Positions 6,828-44,474 of a DNA stretch of 44,474 nucleotides are shown here, piece after piece. The translations under genes and the position numbers were made by a program. This DNA comes from Chloroflexota bacterium (GTDB lineage Bacteria; Chloroflexota; Dehalococcoidia; E44-bin15). The notes beneath the pieces are model-generated. The model had not been told where the DNA came from. It searched no databases and saw only the letters and a list, made by a program, of their open reading frames with translations. The stretch is from NCBI GenBank assembly GCA_030626475.1, contig DAOUOW010000005.1:1-44474 (forward strand), written 5' to 3'. How positions within the stretch are numbered: position 1 is the first letter of the stretch; every line of letters begins with the position of its first letter.

Positions 6828-7700
6828 TTATGCCTGCGGTGTATTATTCTCCTGAGAAGCTAGATGAAAAGGTATTGGCGAAGCATCCTTTCCTGAAGGA
6901 GTGGGCATAGATATGTCCATGTGGGGGAAGTGCGCTTGGAGCATTGAGTGCAGCATCCGAATTGTAACGACACTTTTATGTTTGAAATGGTTGTTGGCGA
7001 AAATGAAGGTTCTTTCCGCTATCTGATCCAGGTTGTGAATCTTTGGCAGCCATTCTGCAAGCTCCTCTGGTGAATAGGAATAATCGTATCTCTCGTAAGC
7101 ATGTTCGTGCTGCCACCACTTCTCTTTGTTGCGCCCATGGAAGCGCACGTAAGCCACCTTGCTCGTTACTTTGGCAACGGGGGGCAGCAGGTTAGGCAAC
7201 TGGGGCTCATCAACACAGCAGAAGCCGAGCTCATTTCGACGCAGCCAGTCAAACACCTCGCGCCTCAGCCACTGAGCATTGCGAAATTCAATAACGACAG
7301 GCAAATCCCTCAGCCTTTCCCTGACAATTTCCAGGTAATCGCGATTCTTGCGATTGTATCTAAAGCTATAGGGGAACTGAGCCAGCACGCAGCCCATCAT
7401 GCCCCTATCTATCAGTGGCGTGAGCACCTCGCGAAAGGCGGTAAACACGTCCTCATTTTCCCCCTGTTCATGGGTCATCCTCTGGTTGGCCTTGATGCTG
7501 AAGAGGAAGCCTTCCCCTGTCTTGTTTGCCATGGATACCAGGGTTGCCGGCTTGGGCACGGTGTAAAAGGTGGCATTGATTTCGCAGCAGTTGAATTCGC
7601 GAGCGTAATAACGGAGCCACTCCCCTTTGGGCATGCCTAAAGGGTAAAAAGGCCCTACCCAGTCGTTGTAGCTAAAGCCAGAGGTTCCAAGATAGAGCAC
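6828..7700 (-). CDS. DUF72 TIM-barrel protein, paralogue 1
   Basis: A 290-residue DUF72 (YecE-like) protein. Seen: the family start LYLGTSGFSYNDW, then FYP, the ELNATFY-equivalent CEINATFYTVP near residue 38, FSIKANQRMTH, LAQFPYSFRYN, VIEFRNAQWL, and YVRFHGRNKEKWW near residue 195, followed by IFANNHFKHKSV. The start codon is GTG and no strong Shine-Dalgarno is visible. The molecular function of DUF72 is not established. The last 25 or so residues (PTPSGKDASPIPF onwards) go beyond the domain. A second DUF72 gene lies at 40139, with only moderate similarity, so the two are old paralogues rather than a recent duplicate. Confidence 0.88.
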   Translation of the reverse strand: MLYLGTSGFSYNDWVGPFYPLGMPKGEWLRYYAREFNCCEINATFYTVPKPATLVSMANKTGEGFLFSIKANQRMTHEQGENEDVFTAFREVLTPLIDRGMMGCVLAQFPYSFRYNRKNRDYLEIVRERLRDLPVVIEFRNAQWLRREVFDWLRRNELGFCCVDEPQLPNLLPPVAKVTSKVAYVRFHGRNKEKWWQHEHAYERYDYSYSPEELAEWLPKIHNLDQIAERTFIFANNHFKHKSVVTIRMLHSMLQAHFPHMDISMPTPSGKDASPIPFHLASQENNTPQA

Positions 7701-7747
7701 GATTTCAGTCTACCACATCTGCCTTGAGCTGCAAAGCACCATAGGTC

Positions 7748-8797
7748 CTATTTTGAAACGGATGCCATTTTCGATTGGGGCTCGATGATCACCTTGATCG
7801 AATCCTGCGCTTTAGCGACGAGCTGGAAGCCCAGGCCGGTCTCGGCTAGAGGTAGCCGGTGGGTAATCATCTCGCGCACACGCACACTGCGAGCGCGGAT
7901 CAGTTCCAGTGCTACTGCATAGTCCGCGGGGCTGCCAGCATAGGAGGTGGTAAGCGTTATGTCGTTGCGAAAGAAAAGGTCGTTGACCGAGATCGGAATG
8001 GTAACGCCCGGGCCTGTCGGAGCGAAGAACAGCACAGTGCCCCCGCGCTCCACTGACTCTAGCGCCTGGGTGATGGCTGGCATGGCCCCGGTGCATACTA
8101 CCACCAAGTCAGCAAGCCGGCCGTCGTTTTCTTGGCGCAGGCGGGCGGGCACGTCCTCTTCGGCGTGGATGGTAGCATCGGCCCCAAATCTTCGTGCCGC
8201 TTCCAGCCGGTAGTCAACGATGTCGGTAGCCACCACGCGACTTGCCCCCATTGCGCGAGCCAGTTGCACATGGAGCAGCCCGGCAATGCCGCTGCCGATA
8301 ACGAGCACGCTCTGGCCCGGCTCAAGGCGCGCCATCCTTTGCCCGCGTAGGACGCAGGCCAGAGGCTCGGTAAAGGTCGCCTCCTCATAAGATACCTCGT
8401 CAGGCAGCAGAAACACCCCGTGCTCCACGTTGATAGCCGGCAAGCGGATGTACTCGGCGAAGCCACCGGGGTCAAAATTCGTCTGGCGGAGGGTGTCGCA
8501 CACGGTGTGATGGCCGCTGAGGCAGTAATGACACGTGTTGCACGGGACATGATGGGCTGCGGAGACCCGATTCCCTTCTTGGAAAGGCTCGACCCCATCT
8601 CCCACAGCCACAACCTCGCCGGCGATCTCATGGCCGAGCACCAGGGGTGCCTTGTCGATGCGATACCATTCCATCACATCACTGCCGCAGATGCCGCTGG
8701 CATGCACCTTCACCAGCAGCTCGCCGGGGCCGATTTTGGGCGTGGGCATCTCCTCCAGCCGCACATCGTTGTTGTTATAGTACATTGCGACCCGCAT
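7748..8797 (-). CDS. Zinc-dependent alcohol/polyol dehydrogenase (MDR superfamily)
   Basis: A 349-residue medium-chain dehydrogenase of the threonine/sorbitol dehydrogenase type. Seen: GICGSD (catalytic Zn Cys), GHEIAGEVVAVG (catalytic Zn His-Glu), the structural-zinc quartet in CNTCHYC and the next Cys 8 residues on, and the Rossmann loop VIGSGIAGLLHVQLA. An open frame extends 22 codons further upstream to 8863, but the start at 8797 is preferred. It has GGAAAGGA just before it, matches the family's start MRVAMYY, and the same first codons recur upstream of the next two genes. It would oxidise a secondary alcohol or polyol using NAD(P). It begins a minus-strand cluster with the MBL-fold and Rieske genes. 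Confidence 0.93.
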   Translation of the reverse strand: MRVAMYYNNNDVRLEEMPTPKIGPGELLVKVHASGICGSDVMEWYRIDKAPLVLGHEIAGEVVAVGDGVEPFQEGNRVSAAHHVPCNTCHYCLSGHHTVCDTLRQTNFDPGGFAEYIRLPAINVEHGVFLLPDEVSYEEATFTEPLACVLRGQRMARLEPGQSVLVIGSGIAGLLHVQLARAMGASRVVATDIVDYRLEAARRFGADATIHAEEDVPARLRQENDGRLADLVVVCTGAMPAITQALESVERGGTVLFFAPTGPGVTIPISVNDLFFRNDITLTTSYAGSPADYAVALELIRARSVRVREMITHRLPLAETGLGFQLVAKAQDSIKVIIEPQSKMASVSK

Positions 8798-8890
8798 GGC
8801 TTTTCCTTTCCGCCTAATGCTCTGGGCTTTGCCAAGCGCGAAGCATTTGAGCAAGCGTAGCAAACCGCAAAGCCCGTGTTGGGCGATGTC

Positions 8891-9754
8891 CTAGCCCGTT
8901 GTCCTGATCGGCTGCCACTGCCACCCCTCTCCCTTCTGGAGGACGTGGCCCAGACCTGGGAAGGGGAAATGACAGGCAATCATCAGGGCCTTCTCGGCAG
9001 CGACCCGGTCGAGGAGATGACGCCTGGTGGCCATGGCTTGTTCACGCACGAAGTCGAAGGCCGGGTACCAGTCAGGCTGCTCCAGATGGATAGGATGGAG
9101 AACCGCATCGGAGATGTACAGCAGCTGCTCGCTGCCTGAGGAAATAGCCAGCGCCATGTGGCCTGGTGTGTGCCCTGGTGCAGCAATGGCCTGGATGCCG
9201 GGCAGGATTTCCGTTTCACGGTCAACAAGATCGAGTTGGCCTTGGATCGGCGGGAGGTTCTTGCGTGCGAGCATGTGCATGATTTGTTTGAGTTCTTCTT
9301 CCACTTCAAGTTGTGCCAGGTCGGGCTCTGACATCCAAAACTCCCACTCGTCCTTCCACATAACGTAGCGTGCGTTGGGGAAAACGGGCTTACCCTCGAC
9401 ATCTGTGTTCCCGCCGATGTGATCCGGATGCCCGTGGGTAAGGATAACCGTGTCAATGTGCACTGGCTCAATCCCCTCAGCCTGCAGGTTCCGAAGTAGC
9501 TTCCCTGCGCTCGGTACCGAACCAGCTCCTCCTCCTGTGTCCACCAGAACCCGGTGCTGCCCTGTGTTGATGAACAAACAGGTCCATGGCGCTGTTATGT
9601 CTCCTGGCTGGATATTGTGTTCGCGAAGTACCTGCTCCAGGCGTTCTTTTGGAGCGTTGACGAAAAAGCTGTGATCTGGATAGACAAAGGTACCATCGCT
9701 GACGGCCAGGCATTCGAAAGTCCCTACCTTGAAGCGATAGATTTCAGTGTTCAT
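8891..9754 (-). CDS. MBL-fold metallo-hydrolase
   Basis: A 287-residue metallo-beta-lactamase-fold enzyme. Seen: the dinuclear metal motif THGHPDH (H-x-H-x-D-H) near residue 112, a later His in APGHTPGH, the bridging Asp in LYISDAV, and a last His in IACHFPFPG. This full metal set points to an active hydrolase, in the lactonase-like group; the substrate cannot be assigned. The ATG at 9754 follows GAGGAGG with a 6-nt spacer. The 5' flank carries a short, truncated copy of the dehydrogenase start (see 9840-9878) instead of an ordinary intergenic region. Possible link: lactones or esters produced by the neighbouring dehydrogenase, which is an inference. Confidence 0.9.
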   Translation of the reverse strand: MNTEIYRFKVGTFECLAVSDGTFVYPDHSFFVNAPKERLEQVLREHNIQPGDITAPWTCLFINTGQHRVLVDTGGGAGSVPSAGKLLRNLQAEGIEPVHIDTVILTHGHPDHIGGNTDVEGKPVFPNARYVMWKDEWEFWMSEPDLAQLEVEEELKQIMHMLARKNLPPIQGQLDLVDRETEILPGIQAIAAPGHTPGHMALAISSGSEQLLYISDAVLHPIHLEQPDWYPAFDFVREQAMATRRHLLDRVAAEKALMIACHFPFPGLGHVLQKGEGWQWQPIRTTG

Positions 9755-9839
9755 GGTCGTCCTCCTCTTTATGTGTATTGTTGATTGGGCACACCATTTC
9801 GCCTAACATCCATATAGACGGGCTCAAGGTTGGTCTATG

Positions 9840-9878
9840 CCGCACATCATTGTTGTTATAGTACATCGCAACGCGCAT
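9840..9878 (-). pseudogene. Remnant of a dehydrogenase gene 5' end (13 codons)
   Basis: The minus strand here encodes MRVAMYYNNNDVR, identical to the first 13 residues of the dehydrogenase at 7748-8797. Only 4 of 39 bases differ and all four are synonymous third-position changes. After codon 13 the similarity stops abruptly; the frame runs on through unrelated sequence into the MBL gene start. The all-synonymous pattern says the fragment came from a functional paralogue that diverged as coding sequence before it was cut away. Confidence 0.7.
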
Positions 9879-9914
9879 GATGATTCCTTAAGCAGATGGC
9901 TTATTCGAGATACT

Positions 9915-10310
9915 CTACAGCGTAATTATAAGATCGCCATCGCTCTTCTCCACCTCATAGCGAGTCAGCGGCTTCCTGGCCGGACCACCGAATCTGTTAC
10001 CCTCAAGGTCAAAGGTGGAATGGAAAATACTGCAGCAGCGTAACATAGATTCTCCCGGCACAGGGTCAAGCTTGCGCCCAAGAAGGTGCGTGCAACGGTT
10101 GGCAAAGGCAAGATATTGGTCATCCTCGGCTCTCAAGATGAGAATGAGTCCAGGAAGTCCTTGGCCTTTAAGATAGATGGCTCCTCCCTTTTGCAAGGGT
10201 TCAGGCATCTGGCTGAGCTTCACTCGCACCTTGTCCCCTTCAAGACTCCATAAGTCACCGCTCAACGGCTTGGTCTGGCAAATCCCCAGTAAAGCCTTGA
10301 TAAAACTCAT
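9915..10310 (-). CDS. Rieske-type 2Fe-2S protein (atypical second ligand pair)
   Basis: A 131-residue protein with the layout of a small Rieske ferredoxin. Seen: RVKLSQMPEPLQKGGAIYLK leading strands, then CTH as the first C-x-H pair (in NRCTHLLG), then CCSIFHSTFD as the second pair, then FDLEGNRFGGPARKPLTRYEV, the usual tail after the cluster loop. The second pair is normally C-x-x-H; here the nearer Cys gives C-x-x-x-H, one residue too long, and the farther Cys is two too long. The cluster may be held in a distorted loop, or lost. Such proteins pass electrons to oxygenases or reductases. The ATG follows AAAGGAGAAA. It is probably co-transcribed with the genes below it. Confidence 0.7.
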   Translation of the reverse strand: MSFIKALLGICQTKPLSGDLWSLEGDKVRVKLSQMPEPLQKGGAIYLKGQGLPGLILILRAEDDQYLAFANRCTHLLGRKLDPVPGESMLRCCSIFHSTFDLEGNRFGGPARKPLTRYEVEKSDGDLIITL

Positions 10311-10344
10311 AGCCTTTCTCCTTTCTATGCTTGTTTCAATTTCA

Positions 10345-10362
10345 GTACATTGCTACGCGCAT
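10345..10362 (-). pseudogene. Second remnant of a dehydrogenase gene start (6 codons)
   Basis: The minus strand reads ATG CGC GTA GCA ATG TAC and then TGA, giving MRVAMY and a stop. The six codons match the start of the dehydrogenase at 8797 in amino acids and differ only at synonymous third bases. It lies 34 nt before the Rieske start codon, as the other remnant lies just before the MBL gene. Short enough that chance cannot be fully excluded, but the repeated position argues against it. Confidence 0.45.
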
Positions 10363-10505
10363 GGCACTTTTTTGATCAATGGTGGCGCACCAGCATCTGG
10401 TCACACTCTGTTCAGGGAGCATTAGTTGACCCGACAAAAGGGCTAGGGCAGCTTCTTAACCATCTGGGCACCTTCAGGCATTAATTCAAAACCCCCTCCT
10501 TAAAT

Positions 10506-10907
10506 TCATTCTCTGCATATAGGACACTTTCCTGATAGATGAAGAGGATACTCTGTCTGGTGATTACTGTCTAAATGCTCGAGGCAAGCTAAAGCTCGGT
10601 CAGTAGTACACGGGTCCCAATTTATTTGAACCACCTCTTCAAAATATTTTCTTGCTTGCACTTCGTTTTTCAAGTTGAGGAAGCAATCGCCGATTTGGAG
10701 CCTTGCATTAGTTGACCATTCTCCTTCTGGATGATTCTTAATAAGCTTTTGAAATTCTATGATTGCTTTCTCATACTGTCCTTCCTCATGTGCAATTTCC
10801 CATATCTCTAAATAACGATCTTTGGTGGAGGGGGAACACCCAGTTACCCATAGGCTAATCAACAAAACAACACAAAGGCCGACATTTACAAGAAGTTTTC
10901 CTTTCAC
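10506..10907 (-). CDS. TPR-repeat lipoprotein
   Basis: A 133-residue secreted lipoprotein. The chosen start is GTG at 10907, because AAGGAGG lies 9 nt before it; the frame also opens seven codons earlier without a ribosome-binding site. Seen: a signal peptide KGKLLVNVGLCVVLLISLWV with lipobox VTGC, then helical TPR pairs: YLEIWEIAHEEGQYEKAIIEF, read as one repeat, followed by NARLQIGDCFLNLKNEVQARKYF. The C-terminus has CPICRE and a few more Cys. The layout resembles YbgF/BamD-like TPR scaffold lipoproteins but is too short to assign. Codon use is more AT-rich than its neighbours, a possible sign of transfer. Confidence 0.75.
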   Translation of the reverse strand: MKGKLLVNVGLCVVLLISLWVTGCSPSTKDRYLEIWEIAHEEGQYEKAIIEFQKLIKNHPEGEWSTNARLQIGDCFLNLKNEVQARKYFEEVVQINWDPCTTDRALACLEHLDSNHQTEYPLHLSGKCPICRE

Positions 10908-10993
10908 ACTATCGAGCCTCCTTATCACTTAATACCTCAGCCGTTTCGCCTAACAGCAGTATATATGAACTGAGCGTCTATCTAAACCGCCTC

Positions 10994-11791
10994 TTACTCT
11001 TGTTCTCCACGCTTCACGCTATCGTATAGCTCCTGGGCCTGTTTCGGGGTGGTGTTTTCATGGATGATGGCGCGTAGCGCCTTGATCATGGCCACCGGGA
11101 AGTCGTTTTGCCAGACGTTCCGCCCCAGGTTCACCCCTATAGCGCCTTTCTCAATGCCATCATAAACAAACTCGAACACTTCAAGCTCGGTGTCCACCTG
11201 GGGCCCGCCGGCCATAACAATCGGGACAGGACAACCCTTCACCACCTTATCAAAGTCTTCACACCAGTAGGTCTTTACTACCCGTGCCCCCAGTTCCGCA
11301 GCAATACGACAGCACAAGGCAAGATAGCGTGCGTCCCTCTTCTCCAACTCTTTGCCCACAGCGGTAACTGCCATCACCGGAATGCCATACTTTTCGCCCT
11401 CGTCAACCAGCTTTGACAGATTGAGCAGCGACTCATGCTCATAGTCGCTGCCAACAAAGATGGAAAGCCCCATTGCCGCCACATTAAGGCGGATAGCCTC
11501 TTCGATAGAGGTGGTGATTCCTTCATAGGCGAGGTCTTTGCCAATAATGCTGGTGCCGCCGGATACCCTAAGGATAATTGGTTTAGCATTGCCGGGCTCC
11601 ACCGATGAGCGCAACACCCCCCTGGTGATGAAGATTGCGTCAGCATGAGGGAGAAGCGGCTCGAGGGTCTTGCGCGGTTCCTCCAATTTCCTCGTCGGCC
11701 CTTGAAAATATCCATGATCGATCGGCAAAAACAGACAACGTCCATCCGATTGGATTAGTTGTGCCATACGATTTGCCATTCCCCATTCCAT
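10994..11791 (-). CDS. Class I aldolase/thiolase, LsrF/DeoC-FbaB type
   Basis: A 265-residue TIM-barrel enzyme of the class I aldolase group that includes LsrF (3-hydroxy-5-phosphonooxypentane-2,4-dione thiolase) and archaeal-type fructose-bisphosphate aldolase. Seen: LPIDHGYFQGPT near residue 25, the motif typical of LsrF, then FITRGVLRS, RVSGGTS, and the Schiff-base Lys segment ARVVKTYW near residue 170, then VPIVMAGGPQ and the phosphate-binding IGVNLGRNVWQ. There are no other lsr genes here, so a role in AI-2 breakdown is unlikely; a general sugar-phosphate aldolase role is possible. GGGAGG precedes the ATG. It forms a unit with the two minus-strand genes before it (11816 and 12328). Confidence 0.8.
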   Translation of the reverse strand: MEWGMANRMAQLIQSDGRCLFLPIDHGYFQGPTRKLEEPRKTLEPLLPHADAIFITRGVLRSSVEPGNAKPIILRVSGGTSIIGKDLAYEGITTSIEEAIRLNVAAMGLSIFVGSDYEHESLLNLSKLVDEGEKYGIPVMAVTAVGKELEKRDARYLALCCRIAAELGARVVKTYWCEDFDKVVKGCPVPIVMAGGPQVDTELEVFEFVYDGIEKGAIGVNLGRNVWQNDFPVAMIKALRAIIHENTTPKQAQELYDSVKRGEQE

Positions 11792-43791: not shown

Positions 43792-44474
43792 TCAATGACC
43801 TGACGGTCGTTCTGCTCCCCGCTTCCTGTTCCACAGCGCCAGCGATGCCCCAGCAACCACTATCAGCGCTACCGCCATGATCCAGGGCATCACCAGTCCA
43901 GCCTTATCCGTTGGAATTATGGTGCCGCCAACGGGAGGAGACGGACCTATCCGTGTGATCGTCTGATCGCATGTGGCAGTGTTGCCAGCATCATCGGTGG
44001 CCGTCCACGTGCGAGTTATGATCCCCGGGCAGGTTCCGCTTGAACTGTCACTGTAGGTGATAGCCGGATCGGGATCGCAGTTATCAGTCGCCGTGGCTTC
44101 ACCAGTGTTAGACGGGTCAGTGGGCTCATCACACCCAACCTCCACATCAGGCGGACAAGTAATCACCGGAGGAGTGGTGTCCTGAACCGTGATCGTCTGA
44201 ACGCATGTGGAAGTGTTGCCACAATCATCGGTGGCCGTCCACGTGCGAGTTAGGATCCCGGTTCCGTTTGAACTGTCACTGTAGGTGATAGCCGGATCGG
44301 GATCGCAGTTATCAGTCGCCATGGCTTCACCAGTGTTAGACGGGTCAGTGGACTCCCCACAGTCAACCTCCACATCAGGTGGACAGTAGGTAATCTCCGG
44401 AGGAGTGGTGTCCTGAACCGTGATCGTCTGCTCGCATGAGGAAGTGTTGTCAGCATCATCCGTGGCCGTCCACG
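43792..44474 (-). CDS. HYR-repeat surface protein, C-terminal part (N-terminus outside window)
   Basis: The frame is open to base 44474, so the gene starts to the right of the window; about 227 residues are visible. Seen: at least three copies of a 76-residue HYR-type unit with TWTATDD, CVQTITVQDTTPPVITCPP, DPSNTGEATATDNCDPDP and AITYSDSS, each with several Cys. Then comes a short linker and one C-terminal hydrophobic helix, PWIMAVALIVVAGASLALWN, followed by RKRGAERPSGH. That layout (repeats outside, one helix, basic tail) is that of a surface protein held by its C-terminus. The DNA copies differ by only a few bases over 80 nt. HYR domains act in adhesion; the ligand is unknown. Confidence 0.85.
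   Translation of the reverse strand, partial: WTATDDADNTSSCEQTITVQDTTPPEITYCPPDVEVDCGESTDPSNTGEAMATDNCDPDPAITYSDSSNGTGILTRTWTATDDCGNTSTCVQTITVQDTTPPVITCPPDVEVGCDEPTDPSNTGEATATDNCDPDPAITYSDSSSGTCPGIITRTWTATDDAGNTATCDQTITRIGPSPPVGGTIIPTDKAGLVMPWIMAVALIVVAGASLALWNRKRGAERPSGH

Follow-up and report, generated by a model that had tools for sequence, protein, structure and literature searches.

Truncated copies of a dehydrogenase gene start as probable recombination scars beside a conserved aldolase gene in a Chloroflexota bacterium

Gene-end fragments in described systems

Integron cassettes form arrays of single genes or toxin-antitoxin pairs that are inserted successively at one place. In Rhs C-terminal tip displacement, sequential insertions at a fixed junction produce strings of dissociated gene-end fragments, a process attributed to homologous recombination (Jackson et al. 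2009, PMC2935791). During effector-immunity displacement in the type VI secretion system (T6SS) of Vibrio cholerae, new modules are placed beside a conserved anchor, while the old parts are shifted aside and kept; homology-facilitated illegitimate recombination was proposed for these arrays, which were compared with Rhs displacement (Kirchberger et al. 2017, PMC5361080). This type of recombination combines a homologous crossover at one end of the incoming DNA with a non-homologous join at the other (PMC3240628).

The locus described here lies in a stretch of 44,474 nucleotides (the window) and contains truncated copies of the start of a zinc-dependent dehydrogenase gene (ADH). As in the Rhs strings, the fragments carry short pieces of a conserved gene. 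However, displaced 3' tips are found downstream of rhs, whereas in the present genomes housekeeping-type genes have fragments of their 5' ends upstream of them and fragments of their 3' ends downstream, and the cargo consists of unrelated genes or toxin-antitoxin pairs. In the T6SS arrays an upstream anchor goes with complete orphan immunity genes, whereas here the anchor lies downstream and the piece kept is a start of 6-26 codons. Read as scars, the ADH starts are in this respect the mirror image of what Rhs and T6SS displacement leave behind. No Rhs protein or T6SS effector was found at the locus, whose genes encode ADH, an aldolase, a metallo-beta-lactamase-fold (MBL) protein and a Rieske-type protein. 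Laboratory events of homology-facilitated illegitimate recombination usually delete recipient DNA (PMC3240628), whereas here only junctions are seen, and from them we infer the process.

The succession of single genes and toxin-antitoxin pairs at one site also resembles an integron array. This origin was rejected, as the integron integrase model TIGR02249 gave no match over the cut-off in the source genome (G000, 68% complete), its sister species (G001), G032 or the genome carrying locus L198, and candidate attC segments folded no better than shuffled sequences. A GTTAGGC-like motif beside copy 2 of the ADH start (described below) had pointed to an attC site, but its similarity is to the sequence that flanks the aldolase gene on the 3' side.

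The start copies and the sequences they are joined to

All genes and remnants of this cluster are encoded by the minus strand of the window. The locus has as its conserved left partner a DeoC/LacD-family aldolase gene at 10994-11791 (Pfam PF01791, E=1e-22), here labelled FBA. Of the 154 ADH loci examined, 101 have an aldolase gene upstream in the same orientation. The gap between the two genes ranges from 4 bp to about 4.3 kb, is usually shorter than 300 bp and holds differing cargo; both gene orders, FBA-ADH and ADH-FBA, occur in nature. The pairing of aldolase and ADH is deeply conserved and its gap gathers cargo, and the variation in length and gene content identifies this gap as a place where cargo enters and leaves. 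In the window the cargo comprises the MBL-fold gene at 8891-9754 (PF00753, E=1e-22), for which no homologue or donor was found at E<=1e-50 in 59 relatives, the sister species included; the Rieske-type gene at 9915-10310 (PF00355); and a gene for a TPR lipoprotein-like protein at 10506-10928, upstream of copy 3, at the place of which the sister species has a different gene of 272 aa.

Three copies of the ADH start are present, one intact and two truncated. They form the repeat family D1, at 8758-8808, 9839-9889 (84% identical) and 10323-10373 (61%). The intact gene, at 7748-8797, encodes a protein of 349 aa (PF08240 and PF00107); its start, comprising 8758-8808 with the Shine-Dalgarno (SD) sequence, is the reference copy, and reads MRVAMYYNNNDVRLEEMP at position 8797. 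The two truncated ADH starts of 13 and 6 codons reported in a preliminary description of this DNA were confirmed at 9840-9878 and 10345-10362. Copy 2 (9840-9878) has an ATG and 12 further codons, equivalent to ADH codons 1-13 (MRVAMYYNNNDVR), and is divergent beyond; it begins an ORF of 44 codons that shares 9 nt with the MBL start. Copy 3 (10342-10362) has six ADH codons followed by TGA (MRVAMY*). The differences from the intact ADH, four in 39 nt for copy 2 and two in 18 nt for copy 3, are all at third positions and all synonymous, the latter as also stated in the preliminary description. Within the FBA-ADH gap, the two closest 24-nt matches to the start of ADH scored 21 and 19, the best of 20 shuffles reaching 17.

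When ATGCGNGTNGCNATGTAY was searched with at most one mismatch in the whole source genome (1.12 Mb, 68% complete), exactly three matches were obtained, all in this cluster, and the reversed control gave none. On this result, a leader or regulatory motif spread over the genome was rejected as a reading of the repeated ADH start; the many unrelated genes preceded by the motif, which the preliminary description had named as the outcome that would speak for a regulatory element, were not found, the motif occurring at three places only.

In the sister species the gene order is FBA, the unrelated 272-aa gene, a remnant encoding MRVAMYYN* (L055:8049), Rieske and ADH. Homology between the two genomes extends to around the FBA stop and is absent from there until exactly the ATG of copy 3; it resumes at this ATG, takes in Rieske and runs on until copy 2 ends, is lost over the MBL stretch and returns 11 nt before the ADH start. 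The arrangement of copy 3 and Rieske, common to both species at 85.6% identity, supports a recombination scar, and its presence in two species argues against an artefact of a single assembly; the copy 2-MBL arrangement was seen in one assembly only, and the scar-carrying genomes are drafts. At copy 3 the upstream sequence and SD differ between the two genomes, and one synonymous change separates them over a comparison that spans only 18 nt. A weak SD (AAGGAA), about 11 nt upstream, also falls within the similarity of the copies of both genomes. The 25 nt upstream of copy 2 resemble the sequence upstream of the intact ADH in the sister species, which suggests that copy 2 occupies the former position of the ADH start. 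ADH and the next gene are about 93% identical in nucleotides between the two species, and no excess divergence of the ADH 5' end over the rest of the gene was found in this comparison; this counts against the scar reading, as a distant donor gains no support from it.

The segment following copy 2 (9794-9837) resembles the FBA 3' flank (10941-10984), with 31 of 44 positions matching, a value equalled by 1 of 5000 random versions of the junction. Among the 136 FBA tails compared, the best for this junction was the genome's own. The segment following copy 3 (10311-10338) is homologous to the last FBA codons and the FBA-Rieske spacer of two genomes of the same family, G010 and G013; it matches the sequence TGAAAAAAGCTTAGATAGGAGGAAGGCT of G010, in which TAG is the FBA stop, at 24 of 28 positions, and 0 of 5000 random versions scored as high. 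These expectations come from first-order Markov versions of the junction sequence and not from aligned families. In the sister species the segment between copy 3 and Rieske likewise matches the FBA tail and spacer of G010 and G013, where Rieske directly follows FBA after a short spacer, a donor-like gene order that supports the scar reading. Because the sequence after both window remnants is like an FBA end or 3' flank, each remnant appears to be a join between the ADH start of one copy of the locus and the FBA end of another, as would be expected from a fusion of two FBA-cargo-ADH loci in which the inner bodies of ADH and FBA were lost. The left side of the join lacks long homology, with ADH codons 6-13 meeting FBA tail or flank sequence devoid of ADH homology; on the right side an orthologous ADH continues into the gene that also lies downstream of it in the sister species. 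In G032 and L198 the similarity of the joins to FBA ends was not significant, which weighs against this reading.

Over seven remnant/intact pairs, 33 of 40 differences were at third positions (P ~2e-5 against the 50% expected for a freely drifting remnant beside a constrained gene), and the changed codons comprised 34 synonymous and 4 non-synonymous ones (34/38); the pairs are not fully independent, since some share the same intact ADH. This bias, in favour of the scar reading, suggests that the remnants diverged mainly while still coding, as the ends of other functional alleles or copies. The earlier proposal of functional paralogues thus stands in that the remnants are ends of functional ADH genes; given that both run into sequence like the FBA 3' end or flank, alleles or copies of the whole FBA-cargo-ADH locus describe their source better.

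Recurrence at ADH and insertions at other genes

Truncated ADH starts in front of cargo were found in the sister species, in a second family of the class and in a second phylum, which supports the scar reading. In G032, from another family of the class, FBA is followed by a gene for 265 aa, a 17-codon remnant, a HicA/HicB pair, a 21-codon remnant, a DUF433/DUF5615 pair and ADH. In L198, which is assigned to Planctomycetota, two small genes come after FBA, followed by a remnant of 20 codons (MPVAMYYNNRDVRLQEMPTP), BrnT/CopG-type genes and ADH. Ordered arrays of remnants beside an intact ADH are present both in the window (copies 3 and 2) and in G032 (copies A and B). The genome of L198 also contains a second FBA locus, 90% identical and with other cargo, as the scar reading would have it; it has the same 94-bp region upstream of ADH and stops 28 nt into the start of ADH. 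These arrangements show the FBA-ADH gap to be a site at which, in at least two phyla, toxin-antitoxin pairs and single genes have landed repeatedly. Self-searches with each ADH returned N-terminal remnants only in G000, G001, G032 and L198, and no further ADH-start scars were found among 393 genomes of the class and 392 of the phylum of L198; in 117 GTDB stretches there was no other extra ADH start next to ADH among the matches listed.

Several other matches were noted at ADH and FBA loci. Two FBA loci of one Planctomycetota draft, L258 and L259 (G393:C89 and C26), are a mosaic of identical and clearly diverged stretches with different cargo and the same 94 bp upstream of ADH. Downstream of intact ADH genes, L076 contains on the minus strand an internal or 3' ADH fragment (residues 258-304), about 1.6 kb after the ADH start, and L072:10814-10843 a 9-codon ADH 3' end with its stop. 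The match in L113 looks like an intergenic repeat and was discarded as an ADH scar; a viral origin was also rejected, the single IMG/VR match (L214) being a chance match inside a phage-like contig.

A scan for gene-end duplications covered 831 kb of the source genome, using mechanical ORFs and simple identity cut-offs, so that scar counts are approximate. In the source genome, a truncated copy of about 22-26 codons lies 1,065 bp upstream of an intact leuD-like gene (L344:6883-7948, G000:C41), fused in frame to an alpha/beta hydrolase gene that lies between the two. The remnant-hydrolase-leuD arrangement is common to this genome and the sister species at about 94-96% identity, with different upstream sequence, and G002, G003, G004, G007, G009 and G010 have a single leuD without the hydrolase, in support of the scar reading. 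At rplA (L334:12473-13436, G000:C31), a duplicate of the 3' end, about 87 nt long and with 2-3 differences, is found 963 bp downstream, on the far side of a lipoprotein gene; in G007 the end of rplA runs directly into the shared downstream region, an uninserted site that also favours the scar reading. Relative to these uninserted relatives, leuD and rplA carry insertions. In the sister species the 3' end of an AMMECR1 gene is duplicated around an RHH (PF01402)/ParE (PF05016) toxin-antitoxin pair (L055:1131-1782, G001:C71). Two further, shorter 3'-end duplications were found in L326, one of an HD-domain gene around a cold-shock-like ORF (10385-10826) and one of a GyrI-like gene around about 930 bp (minus strand, 7215-8265). 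No clear 5' scars other than those of ADH were seen in 1.55 Mb of other genomes. The preliminary view that the cluster was built by repeated recombination at the ADH start is supported, and the pattern extends beyond starts, to the 3'-end scars at rplA, AMMECR1 and others; the same process seems to have acted at several housekeeping genes of one genome. A diverged 11-codon copy of the start of a large gene (MNLNVGTIVPL) 233 bp upstream of it, with no gene between (L363:2182-2448, G000:C60), is a possible scar.

Origin of the remnants

We put at roughly two in three the probability that the truncated ADH copies are recombination scars left by imported or duplicated gene blocks. The FBA-ADH pair would serve as a conserved anchor with exchangeable cargo between the two genes. 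Between the resident locus and a second allele or copy of it (FBA'-cargo-ADH'), recombination would be anchored on the right side in the homologous ADH, and on the left side a non-homologous join would form a few codons inside the resident ADH, beside the end of FBA'. The product would keep the resident upstream genes, with 6-21 resident ADH codons left as a scar, and would gain new cargo with an intact ADH start; repeated rounds could yield copy 3-Rieske-copy 2-MBL-ADH. As the flanking cargo differs, homology between incoming and resident DNA stops at the gene end, so breakpoints would fall close to it. Where the cargo is a toxin-antitoxin pair, products that retain the old cargo along with the new could be favoured. 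We infer the source of the cargo and also the route, either homology-facilitated illegitimate recombination, which we favour, or a fusion between tandem copies. Against the scar reading, no donor molecule or intermediate was seen, and the remnants are uniformly short (6-26 codons), which is predicted neither by random illegitimate joins nor by tandem duplication and deletion.

A serious rival, close to the view taken in the preliminary description and in our judgement improbable, reaches the same product by another route: a tandem duplication of the whole FBA-cargo-ADH unit would have been followed by deletion of the inner bodies of ADH and FBA, by then redundant, fusing an ADH 5' end to an FBA 3' end. 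Both window joins, which look like an ADH start beside an FBA end, the existence of both gene orders and the two FBA loci in the genome of L198 are in line with it. However, none of the 154 ADH loci is an intact tandem array, the deletions must repeatedly stop close to both gene ends, and leuD and rplA are left unexplained unless the same events took place there.

Quite unlikely, in our view, is a general and undescribed process in uncultured bacteria of different phyla, by which small cassettes, often toxin-antitoxin pairs, would be inserted at the ends of protein genes, duplicating 20-90 bp and leaving the target intact; it would be comparable to an integron or CRISPR adaptation system without the known parts. 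That a dedicated machinery (an integrase or Cas1-like enzyme) inserts such cassettes, regenerating the gene end, is very unlikely. It would account for the small and compact inserts, for scars at gene starts and gene ends within one genome, and for the native flank that stays with the remnant at leuD, rplA and copy 2, but the insert ends have no common sequence, no integron integrase exceeded the cut-off and the duplications vary in length. Moreover, the copies differ by 3-18%, mostly at third positions, and in L198 it is the intact ADH, not the remnant, that shares its upstream sequence with the sister locus.

We regard as highly improbable that the remnants are short upstream ORFs or translation-coupling leaders selected for the downstream genes. 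The amino acids are conserved, and remnant ORFs overlap the next start in copy 2 of the window and in both copies of G032 (a GTGA overlap in copy A), the leuD remnant being fused in frame; the upstream reading frames considered in the preliminary description may accordingly be a side effect of the joins. The motif is absent elsewhere in the genome, the upstream sequence and SD at copy 3 are not shared by the two species, and the same kind of scar at 3' gene ends, unexplained by such frames, argues against a start-specific leader.

Once the remnants are read as recombination scars, these short gene ends distinguish, for each insert, the side at which homology made the join from the side at which it did not, and they allow successive insertions to be placed in order; a survey of scars would reveal how bacterial operons acquire single genes in the absence of transposons and integrases.

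An assembly or scaffolding artefact joining strain variants is barely credible, even though the genomes concerned are draft assemblies, contigs of related genomes end at ADH starts and L327 has an exact 51-nt duplicate at a contig edge, since two species share copy 3-Rieske and remnant-hydrolase-leuD at about 86-96% identity although their upstream sequences differ, which, judged from the sequence comparison, largely refutes it for copy 3 and leuD. The L327 duplicate, of the start of a GvpK-like gene (contig start and position 2942, G000:C24, minus strand), was set aside as a likely assembly effect, and a repeat at the start of contig L345 as a likely assembly effect or a plain repeat. Near the end of the window, near-identical stretches at 44107 and 44335, 228 bp apart, lie within a repeat-protein gene.
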